Virus record (IMG/VR): IMGVR_UViG_3300024326_000027
Location: 1-27,997 of that record
DNA length: 27,997 nucleotides
Source: a virus
Direction: 5' to 3' (one strand)
The position numbers and the translations under genes were made by a program. Positions 2,607 through 7,977 of this stretch are shown here, piece by piece; within the stretch, counting starts at the first letter, position 1; each line of letters starts with the position of its first letter. The notes below the pieces were generated by a model that had not been told where the DNA came from, made no database searches, and saw only the letters and a list, made by a program, of their open reading frames with translations.

Positions 2607-2621
2607 AGAAGGAGTATGGAG

Positions 2622-3176
2622 ATGGCAGAGAAGAAAAACAAATGGAAAGTAGCGGTAATAGGTGTAGTTATTGTACTGGCGGTTGGGCTTCTTGGAGTGT
2701 TTGTAGTTCAGCACTCACGAAATAAGGCAATACGGTTAGATGAGAAAGTTCAATCTGCCATGTATAATATAAAAGCCCAGGAAAAGAAGCGTGTGGATCT
2801 GGTATATAATTTGGCTGATTGTGTGAAACAGTACGATAAACATGAAGCAGATACTCTGGCTGCCATTGTGGAAGGACGTGGCTCTACTGGAGACATTGAG
2901 AATGTTACAACATCAATCTCGGCGGTAAGTGAAGCATATCCTGAGTTAAAATCCAATGAAAATTATAAGGAACTCATGAGGAATCTGACAACGCTGGAAA
3001 ATGAAATTTCTCAATCAAGAATCAACTATAATAACACTGTTGAAAAATATAATCGCTATGTAAAAGGTTTTCCGGCAAGAATGTTTTTGGATAAAGCAGG
3101 ATATGAGGTAATGACCTATGAAAGATTAGAATTTGATGCACCGGTTACGGCGCCGCAGGGGTTATTCGATGAATAA
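2622..3176 (+). CDS. lemA: LemA-family membrane-anchored protein
   Basis: A 184-residue protein with a lysine-rich N-terminus, one transmembrane helix (about residues 9-28) and a long helical domain outside the membrane. The LemA pattern is visible in order: 'Y-I-AQEKKRVDLVYNLADCVK-Y-KHE', then 'YPELKSNENYKELM-NLTTLENEI--SR--YN-TVEKYN----FP'. LemA proteins are widespread in bacteria but their molecular role is poorly defined. I start at ATG 2622 because GGAG (2611-2614) is correctly spaced from it; ATG 2616 is too close. The gene overlaps the next one by 8 nt. LemA is not a normal phage morphogenesis protein, so this looks like cargo. Confidence 0.85.
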   Translation: MAEKKNKWKVAVIGVVIVLAVGLLGVFVVQHSRNKAIRLDEKVQSAMYNIKAQEKKRVDLVYNLADCVKQYDKHEADTLAAIVEGRGSTGDIENVTTSISAVSEAYPELKSNENYKELMRNLTTLENEISQSRINYNNTVEKYNRYVKGFPARMFLDKAGYEVMTYERLEFDAPVTAPQGLFDE

Positions 3177-3894
3177 CTTTCGGATTACCCGACGAGAAAT
3201 TTTGATGAGTATTCCCATGGTGGCAATATTGTTTCTGGTGGGAATGTGGATTTCTGGGATAATCGAAAGTCACATAGATGACAAAAACGCAGAATATTAT
3301 AGTGCGGTGCAGATTACGGAACCGGATATATTCCAGTTTAATATGCAAACCAATGTGGGAAATGCCTTTGTATATGGCGTTTTAGAGGCTGTTGATACGG
3401 TTTCCTATCCAGATATCCAGGGAGAATTTATGAGCCTGAGAAAAGTCACTGAAAGGTATACAATGCATACCAGAGTGGTGACAACAACAGATTCTAAGGG
3501 ACGGAGCCATACACGTACTGAAGTGTATTATAGCTGGGATTATGTTGGAGAGGAAGAAAAGCATTCGGAGAAATTGCAATTCATGGGAAGTGAATTTGAC
3601 TTTTCAAAATTCAATATACCAACTCAAGATTACATAGACACAGTATATGAATCACATACAGTCCGGTACAAATTTTATGGGAGCGCTACTAAGTACACTG
3701 GTACAGTTTATACGGAACTGAGAAATGGTACTATTTCAGAATCAAGCAAATTTTATGAGAGTATGAACATAGATGAAACCATAAAACAGTGCACATCTAA
3801 TGCATGGATATATGTGTTTTGGATATTTTGGGTGATTTTTATGGTTGCGGCAGTTGTTGGATTTTATGCCATTGACAATAAATGGCTGGAATAA
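3169..3894 (+). CDS. Two-pass membrane protein with large external domain
   Basis: A 241-residue protein overlapping the LemA gene by 8 nt, starting at ATG 3169 after GGGG at 3160-3163. A short basic N-terminus is followed by a transmembrane helix (about residues 12-33), a domain of some 170 residues and a second helix (about 208-232) near the C-terminus. The domain between the helices contains RVVTTTDSKGRSHTRTEVYYSWDYV and is probably extracytoplasmic. It resembles in layout the membrane proteins that accompany LemA in bacterial chromosomes, but I cannot assign a family with confidence. Coupling to the LemA gene suggests a joint envelope function. Confidence 0.7.
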   Translation: MNNFRITRREILMSIPMVAILFLVGMWISGIIESHIDDKNAEYYSAVQITEPDIFQFNMQTNVGNAFVYGVLEAVDTVSYPDIQGEFMSLRKVTERYTMHTRVVTTTDSKGRSHTRTEVYYSWDYVGEEEKHSEKLQFMGSEFDFSKFNIPTQDYIDTVYESHTVRYKFYGSATKYTGTVYTELRNGTISESSKFYESMNIDETIKQCTSNAWIYVFWIFWVIFMVAAVVGFYAIDNKWLE

Positions 3895-3909
3895 AATACA
3901 GGAGAAAAT

Positions 3910-4065
3910 ATGCTGGTATTTACATTCGGAATCCTCCACTTCGGACTATGTTGGGAAATGATAGATCCAATGGCAGAGGTGGTTGTGTTCATAAAGAAGG
4001 CATTGTCGTTGCTTACAAAAGTAGGCTGGTCTTTTACATGCGACAATTCATTGCATCCAGAGTGA
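3910..4065 (+). CDS. Small hypothetical protein (51 aa)
   Basis: An open frame of 51 residues with AGGAG at 3900-3904 correctly spaced before ATG 3910, 15 nt after the previous stop. The first half is hydrophobic with aromatic residues (VFTFGILHFGLCW) and the centre is a probable amphipathic or membrane-associated helix (EVVVFIKKALSLL). No family recognised. It ends 19 nt before the first tRNA and is probably the last gene of the LemA-containing group. Confidence 0.5.
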   Translation: MLVFTFGILHFGLCWEMIDPMAEVVVFIKKALSLLTKVGWSFTCDNSLHPE

Positions 4066-4084
4066 GTGTGCAATGTGAATTGAT

Positions 4085-4156
4085 TGGGCTATCGCCAAGT
4101 GGTAAGGCACAGCACTTTGACTGCTGTATGCGCTGGTTCAAATCCAGCTAGCCCAG
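4085..4156 (+). tRNA. tRNA-Gln (anticodon UUG)
   Basis: A complete cloverleaf is readable: acceptor TGGGCTA/TAGCCCA, anticodon stem CAGCA/TGCTG with loop CTTTGAC (anticodon TTG), and T stem GCTGG/CCAGC with loop TTCAAAT. The discriminator base is G and no CCA is encoded. It decodes CAA. Confidence 0.9.
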
Positions 4157-4424
4157 CTCGGTTTCTAATTTTTAGAAAACCTCCTTCCCCATCTAGCCTG
4201 AAGTGGCTGAATAAAGGCGTGTCAACAGCGCCGGATGGGTTCGGCACTCAGAGTAATGGCTGTTGTGCCGTATTTCCCCTCAAAACCATTACAGCAAACC
4301 AGCTAACGGTAGCAGAAATTCTGTGGGGTAAGGCCAAAAGTGATACATTATAGATGATAAACTCAGTTATGGCTAACAGAATGATCTGCGGAGCAGGTGA
4401 ACTTGCACTGTCCCACCTGCTTTT
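4157..4424 (+). ncRNA. Candidate structured RNA, part 1 (between tRNA-Gln and tRNA-Met)
   Basis: No credible gene lies here, yet pairing is dense. CCCATC (4188-4193) pairs with GATGGG (4234-4239) and encloses two hairpins, AGCC/GGCT (4195-4208) and GGCG/CGCC (4216-4232), giving a three-way junction. Next come CGGCAC/GTGCCG (4242-4270), then CCCC (4276-4279) facing GGGG (4324-4327) around GCTA/TAGC (4302-4313), and GTTA/TAAC (4366-4377). The 3' end is the hairpin GCAGGTG/CACCTGC followed by TTTT (4393-4424). I infer a structured non-coding transcript; large phage RNAs such as GOLLD and ROOL are known to occur near phage tRNAs, but I cannot assign this one. Confidence 0.4.
4393..4424 (+). terminator. 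Terminator-like hairpin just before tRNA-Met
   Basis: GCAGGTG (4393-4399) pairs with CACCTGC (4414-4420) over a 14-nt loop and is followed by TTTT that runs straight into the tRNA. The large loop makes it a weak terminator; it may equally be a processing hairpin. Confidence 0.4.
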
Positions 4425-4498
4425 GGGCTTTTAGCTCAGTTGGTCAGAGCAACCGGCTCATAACCGGTCGGTCCCAGGTTCGAGTCCTGGAAAGCCCA
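4425..4498 (+). tRNA. tRNA-Met (anticodon CAU)
   Basis: Complete cloverleaf: acceptor GGGCTTT/AAAGCCC, D stem GCTC/GAGC with AGTTGGTCA loop, anticodon stem ACCGG/CCGGT with loop CTCATAA (anticodon CAT), T stem CCAGG/CCTGG with TTCGAGT, discriminator A, no encoded CCA. It fits an elongator tRNA-Met; the Ile2 type, which carries the same CAT before modification, cannot be excluded by eye. Confidence 0.9.
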
Positions 4499-4888
4499 CG
4501 TGGCGTAAGACGATGTAGGCTATGTCTTTATGGCAACGGTCATCTATTACAAATAGCTGATGCAGGCTGACGAGCAGTTTATATTGCAGCCGTTTTGGTT
4601 GGGAGTATCCCATGATCCGTAGGACCAGAAAACTCCATGCTTGCCAGAGCGATTAAACTGAGCCTGGCCTTGCATATACCATGGGATGGCATGAGAAGGC
4701 CATATGCACGTTAAAAGTTGGGTGTAAGGACGTTATTTAATCTTTATCGGTTTCCGAGAAAACACCATAGTGTCGGAGCTACCACGATAAAAACAACTGC
4801 AGGTGTGGGAAAACAGAAGCAAAAAACAACCCAATAGTGGAACGCACGCCGCGATAAATATTGCTGCTATGGGGCCTATACCCCATTT
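4499..4888 (+). ncRNA. Candidate structured RNA, part 2 (between tRNA-Met and tRNA-Tyr)
   Basis: A 390-nt stretch without a gene. In order it shows AAGAC/GTCTT (about 4507-4530), CATC-TATT-ACA-AATA-GCT-GATG (about 4542-4563), GGCTG/CAGCC (about 4566-4593), CCAG/CTGG (about 4645-4668), TGCATAT/ATATGCA enclosing CCAT-GGG-ATGG (about 4671-4709), then TTATCG/CGATAA (about 4743-4789) enclosing CCGA/TCGG and ACAC-CATA-GTGT, and finally ATGGGG-CCTATA-CCCCAT (4869-4886) against the tRNA. So many nested stems in one gene-free stretch suggest a structured RNA. Identity is unproven. Confidence 0.45.
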
Positions 4889-4972
4889 GGATGAATATAC
4901 CGTAATTGGGAGCGGGCCTGACTGTAAATCAGGTGCCTTCGGGTTCTGGTGGTTCGAGTCCACCTTAATCCA
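4889..4972 (+). tRNA. tRNA-Tyr (anticodon GUA), slightly irregular
   Basis: The anticodon arm CCTGA-CTGTAAA-TCAGG carries GTA, the long variable arm TGCCTTCGGGTTC is as expected for tRNA-Tyr, and the T arm GGTGG-TTCGAGT-CCACC is standard. The acceptor GGATGAA/TTAATCC has one G-A mismatch, and the D arm is short and irregular. No CCA is encoded after the discriminator A. It could be a functional but divergent phage tRNA or one starting to decay. Confidence 0.8.
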
Positions 4973-5069
4973 CTGATAACTAAATAGCAAATTTACCGGA
5001 AAGTACATATGACATTATTTGGTATAGTAACGGAAGGAAAGTCGAATTAGAGTAGAAAGTAGGTGCGGT

Positions 5070-6207: not shown

Positions 6208-6217
6208 ATAAAATCAC

Positions 6218-6259
6218 ACCGGCTATCAATCAGAGATAGCCGCTAACCTGCAACAGTTA
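6218..6259 (+). ncRNA. Late-gene leader element, copy before large terminase
   Basis: ACCG begins a perfect 8-bp hairpin, CGGCTATC (6220-6227) / GATAGCCG (6235-6242), followed by CTAACCTGCAACAGTT. The same layout (ACCG, hairpin, then C-T/C-G/A-ACC and AGTT) occurs three times before the tail tube gene and once before the tape measure gene, with different stem sequences that still pair. It ends next to the ribosome site of the gene at 6274. Confidence 0.55.
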
Positions 6260-6273
6260 AAGGAAGTGGATAA

Positions 6274-7977
6274 ATGTCTGATTTAAAGAAACACCTACAG
6301 ATTATCCGGGCTCTACATAAGCGAGACTTATCCCAATACGATAACCTCTCTATGCTTATGGATATGGTTCTGGCGGTAAAAGATGAGGATATCGAACTAG
6401 CGAAGGATGAAGCGCAGTTCGTCAAAAAGACTGCAGCGGCCGGCACCAGGGGCAAGACAGAAGTGTCCAGGTTTGTAGACCTGTACTGGAAAGCCATGTT
6501 GTTCCTGGCACAGAATCGAGATTTGGACTCTTACTTGATTTATCTGGAACGCGACCGAGATCCGGAGGAGCGTTTTTACTTGCCACGGCGTGAACAACTT
6601 CGCAAGCATGGCATTGTGCAGGCTCTGCAGCAGCTCATTGACGATGAGATTGACATTTTGTCTATATCCTGCCCGCCAGGTATAGGCAAGACGACTCTGG
6701 CGGAGATGTTTCTTTCCGGATGGATAGGTTGGAATCCTGATCTGTGCAATCTGTTTTCTTCCCATTCGGGGCATGTTACCCGCATGGTCTATGATGTGAT
6801 CTGCAATATCATTGGTGTAGGTCTGAAGCCTGGACAGATTGCGGAATATCGTTGGCGGGATATTTTCCCGGATGTACAGATAGAAAACGTAAACGCCAAG
6901 GAAGAGACAATTAATCTCGGAAAATTCAAACCGTTTAAATCCATAACATTCCGGGCCCTGGGCGCTTCCCAAACAGGTGTTACCCGCGCGGAAGGATTGC
7001 TTTACTGCGATGACTTGTGCTCTGGAATTGAAGAGGCTCTTTCAAAGATTCGTCTTGATAAACTCTGGACGAAATACAGCACTGACCTGAAAACCCGTAA
7101 GAAGCAGGGAAAGAAAGGAAAAAAGTGTAAGGAACTCCACATTGCTACCCGGTGGTCCGTTTGGGACGTAATCGGTCGGATTCAGAATATATACCGGGGA
7201 AATGATCGGTGTAAATTCATCTCGGTTCCCGATATTGACCCGGCAACTGGAAAGAGTAACTGGAATTTCAAATATGGTGTTGGATTTGATGAAGCCTATT
7301 TTGAAGATATTGAGCGTTCTCTTGATGATATTACATATAAATGTCTGTACAAGAATGAACCTGTAGAGCGCGAAGGAATTCTTTATGAACCTGATAAGCT
7401 CCGGCGGTACTTTGGGATATTACCTGATAAGGAACCTGACGCCATTCTTGCTATTTTGGACCCGAAAGGAACAGGAAGTGATTACAATGCCCTAGGTGTA
7501 TTCTATCAATACGGACAGGATTATTACCTGCATGATTGTGTGTTCCAGAATATAGACCCATATCAGTTAGATGATTTGAATGCAGATTGTCTTGTGCGGA
7601 ATAATACCCAGATATGCCAGATTGAGTCCAACAAGGAAGGCGTGCGGACTGGTGACACTATCCAGGCAAAGGTTAAGGAACGTGGTGGGCGTTGCAGCAT
7701 AGAGAAAAAATATACCACCACAAATAAGGAGACAAGGATTATCGTCAACAGCCCCTGGGTTATTGAGCATGTTATCTTCCGGGCACCCAAAACCCCAGAG
7801 AATCTAGACGGATATGAGGTAAAATCAGACTATGGGCAGTTCATGAGCTGGCTGTGTGCATATAGCCAATTAGTACGCAATCCGCATGATGACGCTCCAG
7901 ATATGGTGGCTATGTTGGCGGTAAGGGAAAGTGGTGGATATAAGGCAAAAGCAGAACCTATGCAGAGGCCGTGTTGA
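6274..7977 (+). CDS. terL: Phage terminase large subunit
   Basis: ATP-driven packaging motor and nuclease, 567 residues. The ATPase domain shows a Walker A motif CPPGIGKTT (about 133-141) and a Walker B GLLYCDD (about 241-247). The C-terminal RNase H-like nuclease carries an acidic residue in AILDPKGTGSDYNA (D396), a glutamate in QIESNKEG (about 451) and a final aspartate in HDDAPDMVAM (540-543). The N-terminal 125 residues are helical and include a short adaptor-like region. Start ATG 6274 follows AAAGGAAGTGG (6259-6269). A leader RNA element lies immediately upstream. It works with the small subunit at 1360 and the portal at 8545. Confidence 0.95.
   Translation: MSDLKKHLQIIRALHKRDLSQYDNLSMLMDMVLAVKDEDIELAKDEAQFVKKTAAAGTRGKTEVSRFVDLYWKAMLFLAQNRDLDSYLIYLERDRDPEERFYLPRREQLRKHGIVQALQQLIDDEIDILSISCPPGIGKTTLAEMFLSGWIGWNPDLCNLFSSHSGHVTRMVYDVICNIIGVGLKPGQIAEYRWRDIFPDVQIENVNAKEETINLGKFKPFKSITFRALGASQTGVTRAEGLLYCDDLCSGIEEALSKIRLDKLWTKYSTDLKTRKKQGKKGKKCKELHIATRWSVWDVIGRIQNIYRGNDRCKFISVPDIDPATGKSNWNFKYGVGFDEAYFEDIERSLDDITYKCLYKNEPVEREGILYEPDKLRRYFGILPDKEPDAILAILDPKGTGSDYNALGVFYQYGQDYYLHDCVFQNIDPYQLDDLNADCLVRNNTQICQIESNKEGVRTGDTIQAKVKERGGRCSIEKKYTTTNKETRIIVNSPWVIEHVIFRAPKTPENLDGYEVKSDYGQFMSWLCAYSQLVRNPHDDAPDMVAMLAVRESGGYKAKAEPMQRPC

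Follow-up and report, generated by a model that had tools for sequence, protein, structure and literature searches.

A small three-way junction RNA in a phage tRNA island and its recurrence in diverse phages

What occupies a stretch of more than 650 nt in a phage genome that is dense in potential hairpins, borders on tRNAs and appears to encode no protein? The window analysed here (27,997 nt, positions 1 to 27,997 of the IMG/VR virus record IMGVR_UViG_3300024326_000027) contains such a region at 4157-4888, and an earlier note, made from the letters alone, proposed that it might be a giant structured phage RNA, either one of the GOLLD or ROOL type or a member of a new class. The general idea of structured phage RNA near tRNAs is supported by homologs and by covariation, but a single giant RNA is not what emerges: support is strongest for a 52-nt three-way junction in the first of two spacers, and the second is occupied by a separate RNA of ~300-390 nt.

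Layout and conservation of the island

The three tRNAs around which the region was described are confirmed by ARAGORN (Table 1). As tRNA-Met divides the region, the gene-free sequence consists of two noncoding spacers, gap 1 (4158-4424, 267 nt) and gap 2 (4500-4888, 389 nt), with tRNA-Gln and tRNA-Tyr as the outer bounds, and the length originally given for it holds solely as their sum (656 nt). The absence of a credible gene from both spacers did hold, and no ORF in them is kept among relatives (designated here by L numbers): an 89-aa ORF on the plus strand (4084-4353) runs into stop codons in L003 and L022, and another on the minus strand (4733-5008) spans a stretch that is mostly missing from relatives. 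The spacer indels seen in relatives are of 4 and 5 nt. Upstream of the spacers are genes for a small terminase (1336-1938, phrog_606), a LemA-type protein and a phrog_3886 protein; downstream are small ORFs followed by the large terminase (TerL), a regulator and the portal. The locus is best explained as a tRNA and noncoding RNA island of a Lachnospiraceae-type siphophage, situated between the genes for the two terminase subunits.

Table 1. Features of the island and its surroundings, in window coordinates
Feature	Position	Strand	Basis and remarks
tRNA-Gln (TTG)	4085..4157	+	ARAGORN; Rfam tRNA 66 bits
Hairpin GGTTTCTAATTTTTAGAAAACC	4160..4181	+	alifold, folds; just 3' of tRNA-Gln, directly 5' of CUCC motif
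CUCCUU, anti-Shine-Dalgarno-like	4181..4186	+	conserved, <=~12 nt 5' of P1
Three-way junction	4188..4239	+	covariance models R1 and R2; covariation
Long hairpin, second half of gap 1	4312..4389	+	alignment and alifold
Hairpin GGAGCAGGTG...CACCTGCTTTT	4390..4423	+	alifold; directly 5' of tRNA-Met
tRNA-Met (CAT)	4425..4499	+	ARAGORN; Rfam tRNA 73.8 bits
Second structured RNA (gap 2)	4500..4888	+	homologous in L003, L047; divergent subtype in L149, L140, L152, L153
Probable divergent second module copy, CCATAGTGTCGG..CCACGATAAA	4768..4792	+	stretch absent from L003, L047
3' module of gap 2, TAGTGGAACGCACGCCGCGATAAA	4835..4858	+	common to L047, L149, L140, L152, L153
tRNA-Tyr (GTA)	4889..4973	+	ARAGORN
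Terminase large subunit	6274..7977	+	phrog_38, 1.6e-49; landmark 3' of junction in most relatives

Folding energy does little to settle whether the spacers are structured. The z-score is -2.36 for gap 1 (4 of 200 shuffles fold equally well), -0.28 for gap 2 (32 of 100 shuffles) and -1.17 for the entire region, and with z-scores this weak, the stability of a single sequence was rejected as evidence of structure. Comparison among phages is more telling. Gap 1 and gap 2 are respectively 90% and 85% identical to the window in L003 and 89% and 91% identical in L047, and gap 1 is 83% identical in L022. As the fourfold-degenerate sites of well-populated genes are only 37-65% identical between the window and L003, where spacer identity is 85-90%, the spacers are constrained more than silent coding sites. 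L047 has the same island even though its terminase is merely 31% identical to that of the window, and on this comparison the tRNA/RNA island seems to move between phages. A BLAST search of 50,697 GenBank phage records returned nothing homologous to the two spacers or to the junction, and a scan with the exact 15-mer AACCAGCTAACGGTA matched 76 stretches, nearly all of them by chance.

The neighbourhood has two further features. The LemA-family gene (phrog_1383, 2616-3176) also sits between the small and large terminase genes, and the TerL leader (6217-6274, CACCGGCTATC..GATAGCCGCTAACCTGCAACAGTTAAAGG) is 93-98% identical in L003, L004, L008 and L099 over ~54-61 nt, although the adjacent sequence differs.

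Several related phages carry aberrant tRNAs. ARAGORN calls a tRNA with the anticodon TTA, which reads the stop codon UAA, in L004 (4808-4877), L008 (3924-3993) and L099 (54-123); it occurs in this phage family, including in Lactonifactor longoviformis, and may represent either an ochre suppressor or a tRNA-Lys that has lost one base of its anticodon loop. A Phe-like tRNA has its anticodon loop cut to CTG in L004 (4412-4479) and intact (GAA) in L008 (3528-3600), with the acceptor and T arms kept in both. A tRNA-like element with a large mid-hairpin insert is present in L047 (5931-6032), L099 (274-377) and, shortened, L008 (~4143-4215); its acceptor and T arm match, and a comparison of L047 with L099 hints that its stems covary. 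L009 (1353-1552) and L005 (4240-5000) contain several sequences that resemble T arms but are not called by ARAGORN, together with a Leu-like tRNA with a long insert, and these phages seem to carry many non-canonical tRNAs. In L101, a tRNA with the anticodon TCA, which reads UGA (1577-1647), belongs to a tRNA array in a Lachnospiraceae genome that has the look of a prophage.

The three-way junction and the second spacer

The junction consists of P1 (4188-4193/4234-4239), P2 (4195-4198/4205-4208) and P3 (4216-4220/4228-4232), with J2/3 at 4209-4215 (GAAUAAA in the window). A profile of gap 1 gave weak matches in L005 and L009, 3' of tRNA-Ser, and when these were read directly, the same junction was found with stems of different sequence. 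In a MAFFT alignment of five sequences, made without fitting to any covariance model, 98% of the pair cells are standard, double-sided changes are seen in 6 of 15 pairs, and slid-partner controls collapse.

Searched with a covariance model built from the junction (R1), 397 Lachnospiraceae genomes gave two clear copies; scanning IMG/VR by pattern added others, each confirmed by its model score, for a total of 22 distinct copies in ~16 phage lineages. The consensus runs from a hairpin through (A)(C)CUCC(UUU), P1 (~6 bp), U, AGC, a short loop, GCU, GAUUAAA, P3 and G to P1', where P3 is GG, three variable pairs, a loop (often UCA) and CC. Among the 22 copies, 99.0% of the pair cells are paired and 11 of the 14 pairs, including all six of P1, show compensatory double changes; the covariation score is 0.76, compared with 0.149 in shuffles and <=0.10 when the partner is slid. 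Two cautions apply: the 22 copies were aligned by fitting to the model, and the search patterns had partly determined P2, J2/3 and the outer pairs of P3. Most of the covariation comes from P1 and the inner pairs of P3, on which the patterns placed no such constraint. Unconstrained folding yields the junction in 16 of 20 loci. The window has the features that define the motif (covarying P1 and P3, UAGC..GCU and the GAUUAAAGG junction) and scores 68.5 bits, a score that follows by construction from its being a founding member, as the covariation does not.

The three-way junction proposed from the letters of the window alone is thus borne out by covariation in distant relatives. The structure is one of RNA, selection acts on it, and diverse phages have copies, which lie on the sense strand at every locus; we have hardly any doubt that it is a real conserved RNA motif.

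One clear copy is present per record in 14 of the 15 records searched whole, and L114 and L125 have two each. Weak R1 matches without an adjacent tRNA (L103-L111, E 0.02-0.1) were treated as chance and were not recovered from the same genomes by a later covariance model, R2, at E 0.01; an R2 match in L136, also without an adjacent tRNA, was treated in the same way. L005 contains a second, weak variant of the junction (3863-3918, GCTGTTAAGG type, 14.6-19.6 bits) 98 nt 5' of the main copy. An extension of P1, or a register switch involving the CUCC flank, is visible by eye at some loci and is not general.

Might the junction be what remains of a tRNA? P1, P2 and P3 resemble an acceptor stem, a D arm and a 5-bp anticodon arm with a 7-nt loop, and the aberrant tRNA-like genes of L047, L004 and L008 would be in keeping with a decaying tRNA array that had left a degenerate tRNA without a T arm. 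Yet there is no T arm and no tRNA score, as 4188-4239 is picked up neither by ARAGORN nor by the Rfam tRNA model; conservation is far higher in the 7-nt GAUUAAA junction and in CUCC than in the loop; and the junction is under strong purifying selection and also found in L151, L137 and L148, where no tRNA was detected near it. This explanation is largely refuted, and we consider it very unlikely.

Nor is the junction recognisable as a divergent form of GOLLD, ROOL or another RNA known to Rfam, despite the shared niche and the copy in L145 that lies ~170 nt 5' of a true ROOL. With relaxed thresholds, Rfam 15 finds nothing beyond tRNA in the window or related loci, the few sub-threshold matches being antisense to tRNA or due to chance. 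GOLLD, ROOL and other Rfam families have no match at E <=5 in the window or at E <=2-3 in L005, L009 and L149. The window does not reach the 99.1-bit cut-off of the ROOL model (RF03087) and has no match to the GOLLD model, which represents the conserved 3' domain, or to Phage_pRNA (phi29-type packaging RNA), and HDV-like families are not listed among its matches. The same program detected the ROOL of L145 at 345.5 bits, and this was the only one of 12 junction-bearing records tested to contain ROOL. Membership in a known Rfam family is accordingly exceedingly improbable, and the identity with GOLLD or ROOL raised in the earlier note has to be given up. The motif is previously uncatalogued and absent from Rfam, and a literature search, whose coverage did not extend to most subscription papers or the large 2017 list of candidate RNAs, found no description of it. 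The note had named an empty Rfam search and a lack of covariation in homologs among the outcomes that would count against a structured RNA; the former was obtained, whereas covariation is strong.

Other parts of the region are structured to differing degrees. Further along gap 1, the long hairpin at 4312-4389 has compensatory changes that preserve its pairs (ATTCTGT/ACAGAAT as opposed to GTTCTGC/GCAGAAC in L047), and the hairpin directly 5' of tRNA-Met has its pairs broken in L022. In gap 2, 3' of tRNA-Met, two nested hairpins had been singled out. The outer stem of one (TGCATAT/ATATGCA, ~4671-4709) is kept in three phages, though it is nearly invariant, and its inner CCAT/ATGG hairpin loses one pair in L003 and L047; the other (TTATCG/CGATAA, 4743-4789) lies in an extra stretch missing from both of these phages and did not survive the comparison. 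The order of tRNA-Gln, junction, tRNA-Met and long spacer is repeated in L149, L140, L152 and L153. Their spacers have double changes in 12 of 70 predicted pairs, with a single helix accounting for five of these, and share with the window a 3' module of the form TAGTGGAAYGCA..CACGAWAAA..ATTGCT. The shared module and the covariation in these four loci show gap 2 to be a second, separate structured RNA of ~300-390 nt. It apparently comes in two subtypes, that of the window and that of L149, which have the 3' module in common.

Genomic setting and possible function

The junction lies beside or among tRNAs in the window and in L003, L005, L009, L047, L101, L102, L114, L120, L125, L140, L142, L144, L149, L152 and L153, with P1 starting 31 nt after tRNA-Gln in the window and 29-66 nt after a tRNA in L101, L009, L114 and L125. 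In L145, the junction is followed in turn by a tRNA-like sequence, ROOL, tRNA-Asn and tRNA-Glu. TerL is 3' of the junction in the window, L003, L005, L009, L139, L142, L144, L145, L146, L148, L137 and L125 and, by synteny, in L150 and L153; it is of the phrog_38 family in most and of the gpA type in L137, at a distance of 0.2 to nearly 5 kb where it was seen. In L149 and L101, no TerL was recognised within 9-14 kb 3' of the junction, and the association is frequent, not absolute. The L102 copy is 5' of scaffold-capsid genes, and the L151 copy fills an 88-nt gap between the portal and minor capsid genes, which leaves no space for a promoter or terminator of its own. Terminator-like hairpins are found 3' of the junction in L150, L146, L142 and L137, and directly after it in the first two; a general terminator at this position was rejected, as it is not universal among the loci.

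The usual location 5' of terminase, portal or scaffold genes brings to mind a nucleic acid involved in packaging, either a phi29-like packaging RNA or a pac or cos site. The compensatory changes, however, indicate an RNA and not a DNA site read by protein, the Phage_pRNA family of Rfam is unmatched, the small terminase of the window phage (phrog_606) is an ordinary one, and no TerL was recognised near the copies in L149 and L101, all of which makes a packaging function decidedly improbable.

Our tentative preference, which we would not put as high as an even chance, is for a cis role of the junction on its own late or tRNA-island transcript. It might work co-transcriptionally, enabling transcription or processing to traverse untranslated islands of tRNAs and large RNAs and terminator-like hairpins, promoting read-through into the packaging genes in the way of an antitermination RNA or of a processing or stability element. 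Action in cis is favoured by the L151 copy, with its tight position between two late genes; the variable distance to TerL, the loci L149 and L101 in which TerL is unseen, and terminator-like hairpins that are not universal count against it. Antitermination specifically is doubtful, and leaves the near-universal CUCC unexplained.

CUCC is present within ~12 nt 5' of P1 in 18 of 20 loci, several of which have the fuller ACCUCCUUU. One of the pattern scans had demanded CUCC; in the seven stretches from another that had not, it was present in six. Many relatives also have hairpins at the position matching 4160-4181. CCUCCUUU is identical to the 3' end of Bacillota 16S rRNA, and the near-universality of CUCC favours anti-Shine-Dalgarno pairing. 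The junction might then be a trans-acting small RNA in which the hairpin and the junction expose a CCUCCUUU seed that pairs with the Shine-Dalgarno sequences of phage or host mRNAs, and the terminator-like hairpins immediately after the L150 and L146 copies would suit an independent transcript. But the predicted probability that CUCC is unpaired is merely moderate (mean 0.58, range 0.05-0.98), no promoter was identified for the junction, and the tight L151 gap is hard to reconcile with a free-standing small RNA; on balance we regard action in trans as possible, if rather unlikely. A more elaborate proposal is unlikely: a new class of phage RNA whose hairpin and three-way junction display a copy of the 16S rRNA 3' tail (ACCUCCUUU), with which the phage would control translation through mimicry or masking of the anti-Shine-Dalgarno sequence, accompanied by a new and unrelated large RNA of ~300-390 nt in these tRNA islands.

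Comparison with known phage RNAs

Several known systems invite comparison with the junction. The packaging RNA of phi29, which is known only from phi29-like phages, contains a three-way junction, and it resembles the present motif in this and in its terminase neighbourhood; it differs in that Rfam gives no match, and the window phage has a small terminase. The put antitermination RNA of HK022 consists of simple stem-loops of early operons. Here the likeness is in the proposed mode only, that of a cis RNA helping read-through of a phage operon, and no relation in sequence or fold to the junction is seen.

Closer in location are the theta ribozymes, which like the junction are small RNAs beside phage tRNAs in gut phages, and which are counted as such when the cleavage site is within 5 nt of a tRNA (PMC10879173). 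P1 of the junction, by contrast, begins ~29-66 nt or more past the tRNA, and theta ribozymes have an HDV-like fold whereas the pairing here is that of a nested three-way junction. GOLLD is found near phage tRNAs, at times with tRNAs inside it (PMC12286853); the junction shares this neighbourhood but has no Rfam match to GOLLD, and its core motif is just 52 nt. ROOL is likewise a structured phage RNA of tRNA islands, and in L145 it follows a junction copy, but it is ~570 nt long, is unrelated to the junction in sequence and is absent from 11 of the 12 junction-bearing records tested.

Phage tRNA islands are home to GOLLD, ROOL and theta ribozymes, none of which has a settled role. What the junction adds to these is a compact and clearly covarying motif found across diverse phages, with one copy just 5' of ROOL itself. 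Its covariance model makes it searchable, its 52 nt are few enough for genetics, reporters and structural work, and with it a function for part of the 'dark' phage RNA becomes testable.
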